Assembly: GCA_003644825.1 (NCBI GenBank)
Contig: QNDJ01000043.1
Coordinates: 1 to 9,047, forward strand
Origin: B21-G16 sp003644825 [NCBI: Candidatus Zhuqueibacterota bacterium]
GTDB taxonomy: Bacteria > SM23-31 > B21-G16
Length of the DNA: 9,047 bases
Direction of reading: 5' to 3'
The position numbers and the translations under genes are program-made. Positions 2,443-8,946 of this stretch are shown here, piece by piece (the first letter of the stretch is position 1; each line of letters starts with the position of its first letter). The notes under the pieces are model-generated. The model was not told where the DNA came from. It searched no databases and worked only from the letters and a program-made list of their open reading frames with translations.

Positions 2443-2958
2443 ATGCAAAAAGAAATTACACTTGGTCAAATGGATTTACCGAATTATAGAAATGTTCAAC
2501 TAACAATTCTTGTAATTTTAAGGGTTCTTATTGGTTGGCATTTTCTATATGAGGGGGTAGTAAAACTGCTTAGCCCTTACTGGTCTTCGGTAGGGTATCT
2601 TCTGGAAGCAAAGGGTATATTTTCCGGGTTATTTAACTGGATAACAGCCAGTTCAACTGCAATTAGAGTAGTAGATTTTTTAAATATCTGGGGATTGATT
2701 GCAATCGGGCTTGGATTAATATTGGGTTGTTTAACAAGAGCTGCAAGTATAGCAGGTATAATTCTATTGGGTTTATATTATGTGGCAAATCCACCATTTG
2801 TTGGGTTTAAATACTCATTTCCAACAGAGGGGAGTTATTTGATAGTAAATAAAAACTTAATAGAGATTTTTGCTCTTGCAGTGTTAACAGTATTTCCAAC
2901 TGGTAAAATAATCGGACTCGATAGGTTAATATTTTATAAAAAGAAATCTGCTGGATAA
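2443..2958 (+). CDS. DoxX-family integral membrane protein
   Basis: A 171-residue membrane protein with four hydrophobic segments (about 18-41, 76-96, 99-115 and 137-153). The first segment has the DoxX signature pattern R-x3-G-W-H-F-L-Y-E-G-x2-K-L (R27, G31, E37, G38, K41). DoxX was first described as a subunit of the archaeal thiosulfate:quinone oxidoreductase. Relatives are widespread small membrane proteins tied to redox chemistry, mostly of unknown function. A long loop between segments 1 and 2 carries W47 and two aromatic-rich stretches. The start has only a weak AAGGG nine bases upstream. A later Met10 lacks any site, so the first ATG is kept. The gene heads the operon, 54 bases ahead of a Tat-exported oxidoreductase, which suggests it may pass that enzyme's electrons to quinone. 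That role is inference. The family call itself is fairly secure. Confidence 0.82.
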   Translation: MQKEITLGQMDLPNYRNVQLTILVILRVLIGWHFLYEGVVKLLSPYWSSVGYLLEAKGIFSGLFNWITASSTAIRVVDFLNIWGLIAIGLGLILGCLTRAASIAGIILLGLYYVANPPFVGFKYSFPTEGSYLIVNKNLIEIFALAVLTVFPTGKIIGLDRLIFYKKKSAG

Positions 2959-3012
2959 AAATTTAGCTTTTTGTAGCTTTTATCAAGAGTTATAAAATCT
3001 GGAGGAATTAAA

Positions 3013-4575
3013 ATGAGTCAGGAACCAAAGGAAAATAATAAAAAAACAGGTGAAGAACCCGATGAGGGTTCTATTGGAAGAAGAGATTTATTAAAGGGGC
3101 TTGCTACAATACCTGTTATAGGGGTTTTTCTGTACAGTTTGTTTAAGAAGAGGTCCTATGATAAACGTATAAAGAAGAGTATTTTTGAAGAATTAGGTTT
3201 AAGTAGAGAGGCTCCGGCTGTTCTTCCAAAATATACTATGAAAAAGCCCGGTCAGTTGATAAGATTAGGGATTATAGGTTTTGGTGGAAGGGGGGAAGCT
3301 CTTGTTAGGTCTTCTGGTTTTGCCCATCCCGATTGGATTGAAAAGAAAAAGAAAGATGCTCTGAAAAACAAAAGAGACAAAACATTAAAGCATTTTTTAG
3401 AACAGGAGGACCTTAATATTGTTTACAATGGGGTTTGTGATGTTTTTGATATTCGGGCAGAAAGAGGTTTAGCCACTGCTGGAAAATCAGCAAAAAGATA
3501 TATTCACTATCAGGAACTGCTGGCAAGTAAAGATATTGATGCAGTAATTATTGCTACTCCAGACCACTGGCATGCCCGGATGGTTATCGATGCAGCTAAA
3601 GCCGGAAAGCATGTTTATGTTGAAAAATGTATGACGAGAACTGTTGATGAAGTTTACAGGGTTGTTGATGCAGTTAAAAAAAGTAATATAGTTTTTCAAC
3701 TGGGTCACCAGGGAAGAGAAGCTGAAAGTTATATTAAGGCAAGAGAAATTATGAAGAAAAATATTCTTGGTAAGGTGACACTGGTTGTAACATCTACAAA
3801 TAGAAATGACCCCAATGGTGCCTGGGTATATAAAATTCATAAAGATGCTAGCCCGAAAAATATTGATTGGGAACAGTTTCTTGGGCCTGCACCCAGAAGA
3901 CCGTTCAGCCTGGAAAGATTTTTCAGATGGAGATGCTGGTATGATTATGGAACGGGATTATCAGGCGACCTTTTCACGCATGAGTATGATGCTGTTAACC
4001 AGATTATGGATTTAGGAATACCGAGGTCTGCAGTGGCTTCTGGAGGAATTTACTTTTTCAAAGATGGAAGGGATGTTCCGGATGTTTATCAGGTTGTTTA
4101 TGAATATCCTGATAAGGACCTTACTCTTGTTTACAGTGCGACCCTTGCAAGTGAAAAAAGACGAGGTAAAGTTTTTATGGGACACGATGCATCTATGGAA
4201 GTGGGGGGAAGTTTAACTGTGACAGTTGATCCCAGGTCTACAAAGTATAAAAAGAAAATAGAAGAAGGTATTATAGACCTGTCTCTTCCACTGTTTGTTT
4301 ACAGCCCCGGTTTAAAAGGTATTGATGTTGTTACATCTGCTACCGAAAAATATTTTGCAGGAAGAGGATTAATGTATACTTTTAGAGGTGGAAAAATTGT
4401 TGATACAACCCATTTACATATTAAAAACTGGCTTGATTGTATAAGAAATGGAGGAAAAACAAGCTGTAATATTGATCTGGGATTCCAGGAAGCTATAACT
4501 GCTCACATGGGAACAATATCTTACAGAGAAGGAAGAAAAGTTTACTGGGACCCCGTGAAACAGAAAATAGTATGA
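3013..4575 (+). CDS. Tat-signal Gfo/Idh/MocA-family sugar oxidoreductase
   Basis: A 520-residue NAD(P)-dependent dehydrogenase-type protein, probably acting on a sugar or glycoside hydroxyl. Residues 22-28 read G-R-R-D-L-L-K, close to the twin-arginine motif, followed by a hydrophobic stretch (29-44) ending in basic residues. No clear A-x-A cleavage site follows, so it may stay anchored in the membrane facing the periplasm. The Rossmann domain (about 82-210) has the G-F-G-G-R-G dinucleotide loop at 89-94, A-T-P-D-H-W-H at 181-187 and the catalytic-lysine motif E-K at 204-205. The usual proline after that lysine is C206. The C-terminal sheet domain carries G-D-x3-H-x2-D (318-326), with H323 the likely catalytic histidine. 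A lysine-rich stretch (about 108-130) separates the first two strands. Start: GGAGGA lies six bases upstream. The Tat route fits proteins exported folded with bound cofactor, as in Zymomonas glucose-fructose oxidoreductase. The substrate is unknown. Confidence 0.88.
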   Translation: MSQEPKENNKKTGEEPDEGSIGRRDLLKGLATIPVIGVFLYSLFKKRSYDKRIKKSIFEELGLSREAPAVLPKYTMKKPGQLIRLGIIGFGGRGEALVRSSGFAHPDWIEKKKKDALKNKRDKTLKHFLEQEDLNIVYNGVCDVFDIRAERGLATAGKSAKRYIHYQELLASKDIDAVIIATPDHWHARMVIDAAKAGKHVYVEKCMTRTVDEVYRVVDAVKKSNIVFQLGHQGREAESYIKAREIMKKNILGKVTLVVTSTNRNDPNGAWVYKIHKDASPKNIDWEQFLGPAPRRPFSLERFFRWRCWYDYGTGLSGDLFTHEYDAVNQIMDLGIPRSAVASGGIYFFKDGRDVPDVYQVVYEYPDKDLTLVYSATLASEKRRGKVFMGHDASMEVGGSLTVTVDPRSTKYKKKIEEGIIDLSLPLFVYSPGLKGIDVVTSATEKYFAGRGLMYTFRGGKIVDTTHLHIKNWLDCIRNGGKTSCNIDLGFQEAITAHMGTISYREGRKVYWDPVKQKIV

Positions 4576-4601
4576 TTATTAAATAATATCAGGAGGATTG
4601 A

Positions 4602-5834
4602 ATGGGTGTAAAGTTTCGGCTTGGGCTGATGATGTTTTTGCAGTATGCAATCTGGGGTGCATGGGCACCTCCCCTTTCTGAATATTTACAGAATACACTC
4701 GGGTTTAATGGAACTCAGGTCGGTATAATTTACAGTCTTCTTCCGCTTGCTACTATCATATCGCCTTTTATTGGTGGTCAGGTCGCTGATAGATATTTTG
4801 CCACTCAAAATGTTATAGCATTTTTGCAGTTTATTGGAGGTATTTTTCTTATAATTCTTTCGAGAATCTCAAACTACACGCCTATGATGTGGATGATGCT
4901 TGTGTATTCTCTTTTGTATGCACCGACTCTTGCTCTTACAAATTCTCTTGCTTTTCATCATCTTTCTCAGTCCGATAAAGAATTTGGTTGGATACGGGTC
5001 TGGGGAACAATTGGATGGATTATTGCAGGGCTTATATTATCAGGCTGGAGATATCTTGCAAAAGCTAACACTACATTTGCCTTTCAGGGTGATACCCTTT
5101 TGTTGGCAGGTATATTTTCCATTATTATGGGAATTTTTTCTTTGAAATTACCTCATACTCCTCCCAAAAAGGAAGGAAGTAATCCTCTGGCTTTTGTTGA
5201 AGCAATAAAGATGTTAAAAGATAAAAATTTTCTTGTATTTATTATCATTTCATTTGTAGTTGCTACGGAACTGATGTTTTATTATGTTCTTACGGCTCCA
5301 TTTTTAACATCTGAAAAAATCGGTGTTGCAAGTCAGAGTGTTGCAGGTGTTATGGTTATAGCCCAGATTGCAGAGATTTTTGTTATGGCTTTTGCTTTAC
5401 CTTACTTTTTACCGAAGTTTGGTATTAGAACAACACTTACAATTGGAGTGATAGCCTGGCCTATACGATATATAATTTTTGCTATAGGTTCGCCTGTATG
5501 GCTGGTTATCGCTTCACTTGCACTACATGGTTTATGTTATGTTTTCTTTTTTACGGCATCACAAATCTATGTTGATATGGTAGCACCAAAAGATATAAGA
5601 GCGTCTGCACAGAGCCTGATTGCACTGGTAACTCTGGGTATTGGAATGTATATTGGTAGTATTTTTGCAGGATGGATACAGAACCATTTTTCCGTAATCG
5701 GGGCTCAGGGAAATATAGTAAGTACAAACTGGACTGGGGTTTTTCTTGTTCCCTGCGTTTTAACAATATTATGTGCAGTTGCTTTTATGGTGTTATTTAA
5801 AGAAAAAAGAACTTATGTTACTGCTGAAGCTTAA
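4602..5834 (+). CDS. MFS transporter, nucleoside:H+ symporter (NupG/XapB)-like
   Basis: A 410-residue inner-membrane carrier with about twelve hydrophobic segments and a central cytoplasmic stretch (about 183-208, with P-H-T-P-P-K-K-E). The first segment with L-Q-Y-A-I-W-G-A-W (13-21), the G-G-Q-V-A-D-R loop (58-64, MFS motif A) and the late H-G-L-C-Y-V-F-F-F with Q-I-Y-V-D (about 309-325) are typical of the nucleoside:H+ symporter branch of the major facilitator superfamily. E. coli members import nucleosides. Members found beside Gfo/Idh and TIM-barrel genes are more likely to carry sugars or sugar derivatives. Start: a perfect AGGAGG lies five bases upstream, and the gene begins 26 bases after the previous stop. 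Its position between the exported and the cytoplasmic oxidoreductases suggests that it imports the product of the extracytoplasmic steps. That substrate assignment is inferred from context only. Confidence 0.85.
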   Translation: MGVKFRLGLMMFLQYAIWGAWAPPLSEYLQNTLGFNGTQVGIIYSLLPLATIISPFIGGQVADRYFATQNVIAFLQFIGGIFLIILSRISNYTPMMWMMLVYSLLYAPTLALTNSLAFHHLSQSDKEFGWIRVWGTIGWIIAGLILSGWRYLAKANTTFAFQGDTLLLAGIFSIIMGIFSLKLPHTPPKKEGSNPLAFVEAIKMLKDKNFLVFIIISFVVATELMFYYVLTAPFLTSEKIGVASQSVAGVMVIAQIAEIFVMAFALPYFLPKFGIRTTLTIGVIAWPIRYIIFAIGSPVWLVIASLALHGLCYVFFFTASQIYVDMVAPKDIRASAQSLIALVTLGIGMYIGSIFAGWIQNHFSVIGAQGNIVSTNWTGVFLVPCVLTILCAVAFMVLFKEKRTYVTAEA

Positions 5835-5870
5835 TTATAGTTTTTTCCTGGTAAAAAATGGGGGTATATA

Positions 5871-7115
5871 ATGAAAAAGAGATTAGGGATAGGTATTATC
5901 GGTGCAGGGTTTGTGGCAAATTTTCATATAAGGGCATGGGTTGGAGTTCGTCATAGTGATATTCTTGGAATTATTAGCCTTGATGAAAAGGAGTCCGAAA
6001 AAGCTGCAGCCAGCGTAAAGAGGCTTGGAGTAGGTGATGCAACCGTTTATAAATCAATTTCAGAGATGGTTGCAAATCCTGATATTGATGCTATATGGAT
6101 TTGTGCTCCAAACTTCGCCCGGATTGAGGTTATGGAAGAAATTGTTCATACACTGGAAACAGGAAAAGGAAAGTTGATAGGTGTGACCTGCGAAAAACCT
6201 CTTGGAAGGAATGTAGCAGAAGCAAGAAAAATGCTGGAACTTGTTAAAAAAGTGGAACTCCTCGATGGATATCTTGAGAACCAGGTTTTTTCACCTATGG
6301 TAGTTAGGGGAAAGGAGATAATCTGGGCAAGGGGTGCAGCCATTGCTGGAAAACCTTATCTTGCGAGAGCTGCTGAAGAACACAGTGGCCCACATATGCC
6401 TTGGTTCTGGGAAGGTGAGCTACAGGGGGGCGGTGTTCTAAATGATATGATGTGTCATTCTGTAGAAACCGCCCGGTTTCTATTAACACCGCCAGGGGCA
6501 GACCGCACCGTTCTTACACCTAAAAAGGTTACTGCTTATACAAACTGTTTAAAATGGCAACGGCAGAAGTATGCGAGAATACTTGCTGAAAACAGTAGAG
6601 GGAAAACAGATTATATAAATAGACCAGCAGAGGATTTTGCCCGTTCTCTGATTGAATATGCTGATGAAAATGGTGAACCTCTTGTTGTAGAAACAACTAC
6701 TTCCTGGAATTTTGTTGGTGCAGGTCTTCGGCTGAATATGGAATTACTTGGGCCTGAATATTCTCTTTCCATCAATACTCTCGATTCCGGATTAAGAGTA
6801 TTTTTCAGTAGAAATGTAAAGGGGGATGTTGGTGAAGACCTTGTTGAAAAACAGAACGCTGAAACAGGACTTATGCCGGTTGTTGGTAATGAAGCCTTCG
6901 AGTATGGATATGAGGCTGAAGACAGGCATATGGTTGAATCTTTTTTAGCGGGTAAACGACCTGATGAAAACTTCAGTGATGGTTTAAATGTTACCGAGCT
7001 TTTGATGACTGCATATATGAGTGCTGAACAGGAAAAAACTATTGAATTTCCACCACCAAACCTCGATACATTTATTCCTGCTGTTGCAAAAGGGAAATGG
7101 AACCCTAAAAAATAA
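5871..7115 (+). CDS. Cytoplasmic Gfo/Idh/MocA-family oxidoreductase
   Basis: A 414-residue NAD(P)-dependent oxidoreductase with no signal peptide or membrane segment, so probably cytoplasmic. The N-terminal Rossmann fold starts almost at the first residue with G-I-I-G-A-G-F (8-14). I-C-A-P-N (77-81) and the classical E-K-P (108-110, catalytic lysine K109) follow. The second domain has G-G-G-V-L-N-D-x3-H-x2-E (186-199). H196 would be the catalytic histidine, and the residue three after it is E199 where the family usually has aspartate. It is divergent from the other Gfo/Idh protein of the operon, so this is not a recent duplication. The start has a GGGGG tract six bases upstream rather than a standard AGGAGG. 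In an operon with an exported paralogue and a transporter it may catalyse the reductive or final step on the imported keto-sugar. Inositol-type or amino-sugar substrates are alternatives. Confidence 0.86.
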   Translation: MKKRLGIGIIGAGFVANFHIRAWVGVRHSDILGIISLDEKESEKAAASVKRLGVGDATVYKSISEMVANPDIDAIWICAPNFARIEVMEEIVHTLETGKGKLIGVTCEKPLGRNVAEARKMLELVKKVELLDGYLENQVFSPMVVRGKEIIWARGAAIAGKPYLARAAEEHSGPHMPWFWEGELQGGGVLNDMMCHSVETARFLLTPPGADRTVLTPKKVTAYTNCLKWQRQKYARILAENSRGKTDYINRPAEDFARSLIEYADENGEPLVVETTTSWNFVGAGLRLNMELLGPEYSLSINTLDSGLRVFFSRNVKGDVGEDLVEKQNAETGLMPVVGNEAFEYGYEAEDRHMVESFLAGKRPDENFSDGLNVTELLMTAYMSAEQEKTIEFPPPNLDTFIPAVAKGKWNPKK

Positions 7116-7143
7116 ACAATCAATTAAAAAAATTCCGTTTTTT

Positions 7144-7151
7144 AGTATACT
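7144..7151. promoter_or_regulatory. Second copy of palindrome AGTATACT
   Basis: The 8-base palindrome AGTATACT from the divergent promoter region (2249-2256) is found again 19 bases before the start of the TIM-DUF1080 gene and is followed by the palindrome TTAATTAA (7151-7158). It lies in the joint-longest gap within the operon (55 bases). It may be a secondary operator or an internal promoter element, or a chance match in AT-rich sequence. Confidence 0.2.
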
Positions 7152-7170
7152 TAATTAAGAAGGAGTAATA

Positions 7171-8604
7171 ATGAAAATTAAATTTTTTGCAACACTTTTA
7201 TTAGTGTTCAGTTTTTTAGTTCCTACAGCCGGGGGTAGAATTAAGTGCGATGATTACAAGGATGTTAGAATTAAGAAATTTCCTCTTGCTGTTCAGTGCT
7301 GGTCTTTTAGAAAATTTTCATTTTTTGAGACCCTTGATAAAGTAAATGAGCTCGGAATAAAATATCTGGAAGCTTATCCCGGTCAGGTCCTGAGCAAGGA
7401 TATGCCGGATGTTAAATTTAATGAAAATTTATCGGATGAACTCATCAGACTTGTTAAGAAAAAATTGAGAGAACACAATATTAAACTGGTTAATTATGGT
7501 GTTGTTGGCTTCAAAAACACCGAGGAAAGTATGCGGAAAGTGTTTGATTTTGCGCGAAAACTTGGTATTAGAACAATCGTAACTGAACCTCAATTTGAGG
7601 ATTTTGACCTGCTGGAGAGAATGGTAAGAAAATATAATATAAAAATAGCTATTCATAATCATCCAGAACCTTCAAAATATGCACATCCTGAAACAGTTCT
7701 TGAACATGTAAAAGGCAGGGATTTGAGAATTGGTGCCTGTGGAGATACTGGACACTGGATGAGAAGTAAAGTTAAGCCCCTGGATGCTATTAAATTACTA
7801 AAGGGAAGATTAATCAGTTTTCATCTTAAAGACCTTAATGTTTTTGGAGATAAGGAGAATGCCTATGATGTTCCTTATGGAAAGGGAGCAGCAAATATAA
7901 GGGATATCCTTGCAGAGTTAACAAAACAGAATTTCCATGGGTTTCTTTCGATTGAGTATGAAAATCAAAAAGAGGTTGAAAATCCTGTTCCTTCAATTAA
8001 AAAAGGAATAGAGTACATTAAAAGTATAACATATTATCAGGATTATGAAGAAATCCTTAAATGGAATGAATATGAAGGTTATACAAAAGCAGGGTGGAAC
8101 CATTATGGGCCGGGTTATTTTGAACTCGATAGAAAAACAGGTGTACTGAAATCTCACGGAGGTATGGGATTATTATGGTATAGCAGAAAGAAATATAAAA
8201 ATTTTATTCTTGAACTGGATTATAAAGTGGACAGGGTAACATCAAATTCCGGTATTTTTCTGAGGGTGCCAGATGTTCCAACAAGTGATGATTATATTCA
8301 TCACTGTCTTGAAGTTCAGGTTTATGATTGCGGTAAAGGTATTCATAAAACTGGGGCACTGTATGATGGAGAACCGCCAAAAGTTAATGCTTTTAAAGAA
8401 CCAGGAGAATGGAACCACATCAAAATAACTGTAATTGGAAATCATTATAGAGTCGAACTTAATGGTGTTCTGGTGAATGACTGGGATGCAGAACCCCGGG
8501 GAAAAGTAAAAGATTTACCTGATGAAGGTTATGTTGGTGTTCAAAACCACGATTGGTCTTCTTCTGTTTATTACAGAAATATTTTTATTAAGGAATTGAA
8601 ATAA
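7171..8604 (+). CDS. Secreted fusion: xylose-isomerase-like TIM barrel plus DUF1080 (3-keto-disaccharide hydrolase) domain
   Basis: A 477-residue two-domain protein. Residues 1 to about 21 form a Sec signal peptide (K-I-K, then a hydrophobic run ending in V-P-T-A-G-G), so the protein works outside the cytoplasm. Residues about 37-288 are a sugar phosphate isomerase/epimerase-type TIM barrel with the expected metal-ligand quartet E139 (V-T-E-P), D192 (G-D-T-G-H), H218 (S-F-H-L-K-D) and E262 (S-I-E-Y-E), plus I-H-N-H-P at 161-165. Residues about 290-477 match the DUF1080 family (Pfam 3-keto-disaccharide hydrolase), a concanavalin-like beta sandwich, with S-G-I-F-L-R, L-E-V-Q-V-Y-D, G-E-W-N and G-Y-V-G-V-Q-N-H. 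TIM barrels of this class cleave 3-keto-glycosides in C-glycoside breakdown (DgpC type), so together the domains suggest cleavage of a 3-keto-glycoside made by the upstream enzyme. Start: AAGGAG lies five bases upstream. Three in-frame stops (TAATAATAA) end the gene. Confidence 0.88.
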   Translation: MKIKFFATLLLVFSFLVPTAGGRIKCDDYKDVRIKKFPLAVQCWSFRKFSFFETLDKVNELGIKYLEAYPGQVLSKDMPDVKFNENLSDELIRLVKKKLREHNIKLVNYGVVGFKNTEESMRKVFDFARKLGIRTIVTEPQFEDFDLLERMVRKYNIKIAIHNHPEPSKYAHPETVLEHVKGRDLRIGACGDTGHWMRSKVKPLDAIKLLKGRLISFHLKDLNVFGDKENAYDVPYGKGAANIRDILAELTKQNFHGFLSIEYENQKEVENPVPSIKKGIEYIKSITYYQDYEEILKWNEYEGYTKAGWNHYGPGYFELDRKTGVLKSHGGMGLLWYSRKKYKNFILELDYKVDRVTSNSGIFLRVPDVPTSDDYIHHCLEVQVYDCGKGIHKTGALYDGEPPKVNAFKEPGEWNHIKITVIGNHYRVELNGVLVNDWDAEPRGKVKDLPDEGYVGVQNHDWSSSVYYRNIFIKELK

Positions 8605-8841: not shown

Positions 8842-8876
8842 TGTCATTGCGAGTCCTTATGTACGAAGCAATCTTC
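8842..8876. repeat. Dispersed TCATTGCGAG / GAAGCAATC element
   Basis: TGTCATTGCGAG (8842-8853) and ACGAAGCAATCTTC (8863-8876) frame an 9-base spacer. ATTGC (8846-8850) and GCAAT (8868-8872) form inverted ends. From memory, this motif is a recurring small palindromic repeat in intergenic DNA of many environmental bacteria. Copy number in this genome cannot be judged from one copy in the window. Confidence 0.6.
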
Positions 8877-8946
8877 TGATTATGTGAAATCTATTTATGA
8901 ACTGACACAGATGCCCGTTCAACTGGTAAAATATATTAATAATTGT

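Follow-up and report, generated by a model that had tools for sequence, protein, structure and literature searches.

Many environmental bacteria export Gfo/Idh enzymes that use NAD(P), and the reoxidation of such enzymes outside the cytoplasm is not well understood. This question is raised by a stretch of 9,047 nucleotides (nt) on contig QNDJ01000043.1 of the metagenome-assembled genome (MAG) B21-G16 sp003644825. The stretch, referred to as the window (G000:C43:1-9047), contains five closely spaced genes on the plus strand, the first two of which encode a DoxX family membrane protein (positions 2443..2958) and Gfo1, a Gfo/Idh protein (3013..4575). The host MAG comprises 2.48 Mb in 493 contigs and is 83.6% complete. 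Comparison with related loci indicates that DoxX and Gfo1 are almost certainly dedicated partners with a shared anchor, and suggests that the pair may pass electrons from sugar oxidation to the quinone pool, possibly via a covalently bound flavin mononucleotide (FMN).

The DoxX protein consists of 171 amino acids (aa) with about four transmembrane helices and matches PF07681 with 26.2 bits against a cut-off of 23.6. It is the sole DoxX match of its kind in the host MAG and is the proposed electron-accepting partner of Gfo1. Gfo1 (520 aa) matches PF01408 (58.7 bits) and PF19051 (44.1 bits), and its structural model has a mean predicted local distance difference test score (pLDDT) of 85.3 and a predicted template modelling score (pTM) of 0.82. 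Two arginines at residues 23-24 are followed by a long hydrophobic helix, which spans residues 34-61 in the model; since no cleavage site is visible, Gfo1 is read as membrane-anchored. The twin-arginine translocation (Tat) signal that an initial annotation had assigned to this protein is thus retained, refined to a putative anchor, and the host genome encodes TatC.

The same annotation had listed DoxX without giving it a role. A DoxX search of named genomes gave 368 confirmed loci, of which the best 80, ranked by DoxX similarity, were compared; the adjacency rates below are therefore valid for close DoxX relatives only. These loci hold 81 DoxX open reading frames (ORFs), and 76 of them lie beside a Gfo relative or are fused to an oxidoreductase-like domain: 52 adjoin a long Gfo1 relative, 14 are fused, and 10 adjoin another or a cut-off Gfo. 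No partner is in view for the other five, three of which lie at or near a contig end (L027, L043, and L064); at L015 the only Gfo sequence is a weak fragment upstream of DoxX, and L008 truly has no Gfo1 beside DoxX. Named species with a DoxX-Gfo1 pair include Maribacter aquimaris (L033) and Maribellus luteus (L070). Among 60 relatives including the host, DoxX matches occur in three genomes (G000, G011, and G050), the very three with a DoxX-adjacent Gfo1, and five of the six genomes searched from the host phylum show no DoxX match at E 1e-12. An assignment of the host to Aminicenantes was discarded, as it was based on the best DoxX match alone. Residues R27, H33, Y36, E37, K41, Y132, and E141 of DoxX are kept in 70 or 71 of the 71 rows of an alignment in which the window protein is counted twice (window and L085).

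The oxidoreductases that close relatives of this DoxX adjoin, or with which they form fusions, are of three kinds: Gfo1, Gfo proteins of a second clade, and an aldo-keto-reductase-like domain. In the fusions, fourteen DoxX ORFs run on into an RR-bearing helix and then into a second domain, whose closest folds are aldo-keto reductases, including L-galactose dehydrogenases (model mean pLDDT 74). With a pTM of 0.53, and with motif residues 230-236 below a pLDDT of 50, the interface between DoxX and the enzyme is unreadable in this model. These fusions (L048, L053, L054, L055, L059, and others) are apparently polytopic proteins whose last helix would use Tat via an internal RR; they may be likened to the actinobacterial Rieske proteins, which are polytopic and send their last helix via Tat.

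The joint of the fusions resembles RR-[DE]-x-[LI]-K-x-L-A-T-x-P-x-x-G, and Gfo1 begins with the same segment (residues 23-60, positions 3079..3192). Scored as P at +10 and G at +13 counted from the second R, which are Pro34 and Gly37 in Gfo1, this RR-x9-P-x2-G anchor is carried by 55 of the 56 DoxX-adjacent Gfo1 proteins, the single miss (L135) having the P and no G. It is also carried by 7/9 DoxX-adjacent Gfo proteins of another clade, both misses being cut ORFs (L015 and L136, the latter a copy of L023), and by 15/16 fusions, where the miss (L116) is a cut copy of L053. None of 40 RR-bearing Gfo proteins not adjoining DoxX carries it, which is the meaningful control because the loci were picked around DoxX. 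These counts cover Gfo ORFs that have RR within their first 110 residues (residues 150-330 for the fusions); identical Gfo proteins were counted once, and fusions were not deduplicated. A scan with a stricter hydrophobic pattern, applied to ORFs no shorter than 200 aa with identical proteins counted once, covered L001-L123, L127-L136, and L171-L211, leaving out L124-L126 and L137-L170. It placed 78 of 79 carriers beside DoxX and the remaining one 731 nt away. A later sample, consisting of 40 of the listed DoxX places (some genomes repeatedly) and one other place, with L177 and L181 repeating L015 and L044, gave the anchor in 8/8 Gfo1 proteins (including the cut L171), 11/11 other DoxX-adjacent Gfo proteins, and 17/21 fusions, one fusion match (L210) that looks spurious being excluded. 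Members of the second Gfo clade beside DoxX (L178-L181, L183-L185, L187-L191, L128, L133, and L136) show the anchor wherever the N-terminus is preserved.

A second feature, common to Gfo1 and most fusions, is a loop resembling a flavinylation site. According to the available text of PMC12052999, the residue to which ApbE links FMN is the last one in the motif D-x-x-[S/T]-G-A-[S/T], and replacing Gly with Ala in the motif of a model protein left about half of the flavinylation. The corresponding segment of Gfo1, D438-V-V-T-S-A-T444 (positions 4324..4344), lies where the model is least certain: beyond the N-terminal 79 residues, the pLDDT falls below 50 only at 437-440, 442-444, and 450-454. Among 50 aligned Gfo1 proteins, D438 is present in all, Thr occupies position 444 in 48 with Ser in the other two, and the relaxed pattern D-x-x-[ST]-[GST]-A-[ST] fits 40. 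Counted over ORFs of 300 to 620 aa, this relaxed pattern occurs in 43/55 DoxX-adjacent Gfo1-clade ORFs versus 11/466 background ORFs, in 0/73 other Gfo ORFs, and in neither of the two Gfo1-clade ORFs not beside DoxX, which have E for D. A similar motif stands just past the anchor in 13/13 fusions if its first position may also be N, H, or A (D in 8); the motif Gly is present in six, two of these with D. The later sample shows the motif in 16/21 fusions, again with N, H, or A allowed for D, and in 7/7 full-length Gfo1 proteins, which are not seven independent cases, as L172-L174 represent one genus.

The gene for ApbE is itself linked to DoxX. It is present in 48 of the 50 DoxX-carrying genomes, where nine DoxX-ApbE pairs are no more than 1.5 kb apart when 0.12 would be expected, and 13 no more than 6 kb apart when 0.48 would be expected, the expectation assuming uniform placement of 87 ApbE and 86 DoxX places with contig ends ignored. 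ApbE fragments of one gene were merged for this count (G064:C342, G065:C10, and G104:C322). Six of the nine closest pairs are co-oriented. Of these six, two Gemmatimonadota (L071 and L075) show the order ApbE-DoxX-Gfo1, two Acidobacteria (L053 and L059) have the DoxX fusion followed by ApbE, a Hydrogenedentes MAG (L127) has ApbE followed by the DoxX fusion, and G091 has ApbE-DoxX-other Gfo (L128), with a DoxX only 42% identical. The order ApbE-DoxX-Gfo1 also occurs in two of the four genomes searched from another phylum (G011 and G111; loci L089/L122 and L171). In two Neomarinimicrobiota (L041 and L135), the five-gene operon ends next to a convergent ApbE gene.

Collectively, the best single account of these observations, held tentatively and at slightly less than even probability, is a chain from NAD(P)H over covalent FMN and DoxX to quinone within a split-compartment sugar pathway. 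Gfo1 would be exported by Tat, and its RR-x9-P-x2-G helix would anchor it and dock it on DoxX. In the periplasm, it would oxidise a hydroxyl of a glycoside or sugar, most likely at C3, with tightly held NAD(P), as its family and fold suggest. Because the periplasm is not known to have a free NAD pool, the hydride would be handed to a protein-bound FMN, which ApbE would have attached to Thr444 in the DVVTSAT loop and from which electrons would pass to DoxX and then to quinone. The FMN and DoxX steps are suggested by the motif, by its recurrence in the unrelated DoxX-fused aldo-keto-reductase-like domain, and by the ApbE linkage. The keto-glycoside would then be cleaved by the secreted TIM+DUF1080 protein, the keto-sugar or a released fragment imported by the transporter of the major facilitator superfamily (MFS), and the imported keto-sugar reduced by the cytoplasmic Gfo2. 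For the covalent FMN on Gfo1 taken alone, the sequence evidence leaves the chances evenly divided. More generally, and slightly more tentatively than the chain in Gfo1 itself, DoxX and the anchor may form a general module connecting exported NAD(P)-dependent sugar oxidoreductases with unrelated folds to the quinone pool, two of the three kinds via ApbE-attached FMN and the aldo-keto-reductase-like kind as a single membrane protein that is a Sec/Tat hybrid. If so, extracytosolic electron transfer would have a new class in which the flow is inward, and this would explain how periplasmic NAD(P) enzymes run as dehydrogenases. It would also give a role to the poorly understood DoxX family and connect sugar oxidation with respiration. 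The anchor, with 78 of 79 carriers beside DoxX, and the flavinylation-like loop make the reoxidation question directly testable.

A number of observations weigh against this electron route. The first concern the motif itself. The window Gfo1 fails the canonical D-x-x-[ST]-G-A-[ST], having Ser for Gly, and the Gly position is Ser in 41/50 aligned Gfo1 proteins and Gly in only two; among the same 50, Pro replaces Ala in six and Ala replaces the first Ser/Thr in four. The two Acidobacteria fusions beside ApbE read HAITGAT, with H in place of D, and at L089/L122 and L171 Gfo1 is cut upstream of the motif, which is uncheckable there. The second DoxX-linked Gfo clade shows the motif in 0/6 (main loci) and 0/11 (later sample) cases, and no [ST][GS]A[ST] is found in the 7/7 sequences read. 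The others concern ApbE, for which there is no match in G061 and G108 among the 50 DoxX-carrying genomes. In the later sample, ApbE occurs in 6/12 stretches of the motif-less second Gfo clade and in 0/7 Gfo1 and 0/20 fusion stretches. Three Aminicenantes loci have it in divergent orientation next to a NusG_II gene, perhaps an Rnf neighbour, and there it may serve Rnf. Given the motif-less clade and this pairing, ApbE follows the DoxX module and not strictly the motif, and flavinylation of the motif is too simple as the cause of every ApbE near DoxX.

Much of this evidence favours the view that the D-x-x-[ST]-x-A-T loop is a structural or DoxX-docking loop, with the ApbE near DoxX serving other flavoproteins, e.g., Rnf; in L009, one protein close by indeed combines RnfB-like FeS and Fer4 domains. 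A low-confidence loop within the confident Gfo1 core is compatible with a modified site and with a docking loop alike. However, a loop serving only docking would not lead one to expect a similar motif in an unrelated domain, with Gly in 6/13 fusions, nor ApbE co-oriented with DoxX within 1.5 kb in 6/50 genomes and adjoining it in two genomes of another phylum. We regard the docking-loop explanation as rather unlikely, although it is the most probable of the alternatives to the proposed chain.

An explanation that we judge unlikely to a slightly greater degree keeps the 3-keto-glycoside pathway but has Gfo1 work in a redox-neutral manner with tightly bound NAD(P), with no flavin and with DoxX as a mere membrane holder. 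Gfo/Idh enzymes of the glucose-fructose oxidoreductase type are redox-neutral with tightly bound NAD(P), and glucose-fructose oxidoreductase is among both the sequence and the fold matches of Gfo1. The motif-less second clade described above agrees with this explanation, as does the absence of an ApbE match in the host MAG, which also counts against the FMN chain. So do two relatives from the host class, G002 and G004 (L129:684-2141 and L130:3194-4651), which encode a Gfo1-like protein with E-E-I-T-S-A-T and an ordinary-looking Tat signal but have no DoxX match in the genome; the motif-like loop may therefore predate the link to DoxX. Yet a mere anchor would not require the invariant R27, H33, E37, K41, and E141 of DoxX, and both the recurrence of DoxX in fusion with an unrelated oxidoreductase-like domain and the ApbE linkage would be left unexplained. 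As for the host, its MAG encodes three FMN_bind proteins with [ST]GA[ST] and one protein with this motif that we take to be RnfD-like, which makes protein flavinylation in this organism most likely; the ApbE gene itself probably lies in the unrecovered part of the genome. FMN_bind and RnfD-like proteins with TGAT motifs are encoded on G000:C145 (L137 and L140), about 1.5 kb from TatC.

Two further points temper the FMN-DoxX-quinone chain. DoxD/DoxA is a thiosulfate:quinone oxidoreductase, and by this analogy quinone reduction by DoxX has an equal chance of being right or wrong. The sugar substrate of the pathway is likewise putative, being drawn from family and fold. The best fold matches of Gfo1 are the glucoside-3-dehydrogenase AL3, free and with trehalose (8tdf and 8tdh), followed by levoglucosan dehydrogenase, with glucuronide-3-dehydrogenase and DgpA proteins also listed. 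Its best NCBIfam family is the BT_2158_fam glycoside 3-dehydrogenase, but the score of 141 bits falls short of the cut-off (750), which makes Gfo1 a relative and not a member of that family. DgpA is a PDB relative of both Gfo1 and Gfo2.

The remaining three genes fit a sugar pathway. The MFS gene (4602..5834, plus strand) belongs to the nucleoside:H+ symporter (NupG) family (PF03825, 348.7 bits) and encodes the proposed importer. Gfo2 (5871..7115, plus strand; PF01408, 65.1 bits), the proposed keto-sugar reductase, has its Rossmann match from residue 6, which leaves no space for a signal; its closest PDB sequences include 6jw6, DgpA, and 1,5-anhydrofructose reductase. The last gene (7171..8604, plus strand) encodes the proposed cleavage enzyme, which has a hydrophobic, signal-like N-terminus when the sequence is read by eye and is thus predicted to carry a signal peptide. 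It combines a xylose-isomerase-like TIM-barrel domain (AP_endonuc_2, PF01261, 72.2 bits; residues 55-285, positions 7333..8025) with a DUF1080 domain (residues 303-474, positions 8077..8592). The latter matches PF06439, named 3-keto-disaccharide hydrolase in Pfam, with 127.1 bits against a cut-off of 26.8, which bears out the initial DUF1080 assignment. According to the available text of PMC9007349, mutant fitness ties a Caulobacter DUF1080 gene to the use of lactose, via 3-ketolactose as its authors propose. In the TIM part of the window protein and four homologues, E139, D192, H195, H218, and E264 are invariant polar residues. The kinship of this barrel with DgpC that had been suggested was dropped, as none of its 13 PDB matches (E 0.001) is named DgpC.

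On this sequence basis, the 3-keto-glycoside reading of the operon is plausible: the gene order, the AL3-like fold, and the DUF1080 score speak for it, with Gfo1 scoring below the BT_2158_fam cut-off. Chemistry on 3-keto-sugars is somewhat more probable than not, and the C3 regiochemistry, the substrate, and the direction of Gfo2 are what we infer from this setting. That the operon instead degrades inositol or a similar polyol, with Gfo1 and Gfo2 as inositol-type dehydrogenases and the TIM domain as an inosose dehydratase or isomerase, is improbable, since the weak NCBIfam matches of both Gfo proteins to iolG (83.2 and 65.8 versus 355) and of the TIM protein to iolE (30.7 versus 290) all stay far under the cut-offs, the best NCBIfam family for Gfo1 is a glycoside 3-dehydrogenase, and DUF1080 is not known to be part of inositol pathways. 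The glycosides were also thought to be degraded by a complete unit free of hydrolases; no glycoside-hydrolase family appears among the profile matches of the six window proteins, but this says little, because 9 kb is too small a share of a MAG with 493 contigs to show such completeness. In the same MAG, another Gfo/Idh gene directly precedes a DUF1080 gene (198 bits) at G000:C70:355-2379 (L001).

The five genes are intact ORFs separated by gaps of 54, 26, 36, and 55 nt, and each start codon is preceded by a purine-rich sequence. Their number and families had been given correctly at the outset, as ORF positions and Pfam matches confirm, with the MFS protein now refined to the NupG type. Conservation of the order, which had been put forward as a check on the pathway, was also borne out. 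Gfo1 lies downstream of DoxX in 49 loci, at least 4 kb beyond it is available in 34, and nine of these 34 show DoxX-Gfo1-MFS-Gfo2-DUF1080; one of the nine is titled Aminicenantes and eight Neomarinimicrobiota or Marinimicrobia. The last gene is a TIM+DUF1080 fusion in two of them (L005 and L012) and has a DUF1080 match alone in seven, six of which score low for DUF1080 (34 to 48 bits). A further locus, L135, shows the full order. Three loci from the phylum of G050 (L173-L175) have DoxX, Gfo1, MFS, and Gfo2, and then a TIM domain where the stretch ends; L006, L075, and L079 are cut after the beginning of the order, and L071 has all parts in a different arrangement. Many loci with the title Bacteroidota or Bacteroidales instead continue after the DoxX-Gfo1 pair with genes for another Gfo and a DUF1080 protein. 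A Latescibacterota locus (L008:5163-9747) shows DoxX, MFS, Gfo2, and TIM+DUF1080 with no Gfo1 between DoxX and MFS.

Parts of this arrangement have known counterparts. DoxDA pairs or fuses a four-helix protein of the DoxX/DoxD type with a periplasmic subunit anchored by one helix, but its partner enzyme and substrate are unrelated to those proposed here. DgpA-DgpB/C combines C3 oxidation by a Gfo/Idh enzyme with subsequent cleavage; unlike the proposed pathway, that system is cytoplasmic, and DgpC is not among the names of the TIM+DUF1080 matches. Closer in fold is the pairing of a periplasmic Gfo/Idh glycoside 3-dehydrogenase with a DUF1080 protein in Bacteroides (BT2158 and BT2157) and Alistipes (AL3). 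In the available text, BT2158 is a periplasmic glycoside 3-dehydrogenase (PMC11300592) and BT2157 a 3-ketotrehalose hydrolase with a DUF1080 domain (PMC9007349). Compared with the proteins BT2158 and AL3 themselves, Gfo1 may be set apart by its DoxX partner, its P-x-x-G anchor, and the flavinylation-like loop. Caulobacter LacABC resembles the window in that C3 is oxidised by a membrane-bound enzyme in the periplasm, where a DUF1080 protein is the proposed hydrolase for the next step (PMC9007349, in its available text). However, LacABC is a three-component lactose 3-dehydrogenase, whereas the window oxidiser is of the Gfo/Idh type with DoxX. Finally, the extracytosolic systems flavinylated by ApbE (Rnf, Nqr, FMN_bind, DUF2271, PepSY-like, and others) share a motif-bearing exported protein, a membrane redox partner, and a linked ApbE (PMC8238504 and PMC11334425, as far as their available text goes), but electrons would here run inward, from sugar to quinone. 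The words 'Gfo' and 'aldo' have no occurrence in the main text of these two flavinylation surveys. Within the open-access literature searched, to which subscription papers and supplements do not belong, there is no joint treatment of DoxX and ApbE, with or without flavinylation, and no paper on Gfo with flavinylation; among open-access papers on combinations of Gfo, DUF1080, and 3-keto, none was found that mentions DoxX. Keto-glycoside pathways, DUF1080 hydrolases, and ApbE systems are already known, and the DoxX module has a fair chance of representing a separate class.

Upstream of the operon, the window encodes an NAD-dependent DNA ligase on the minus strand (108-2138), identified by its ORF and profile matches, which bears no relation to the five genes. 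Downstream, positions 8845-8885 hold CATTGCGAGTCC and CGAAGCAATCT, probably part of an intergenic repeat common in some candidate phyla.

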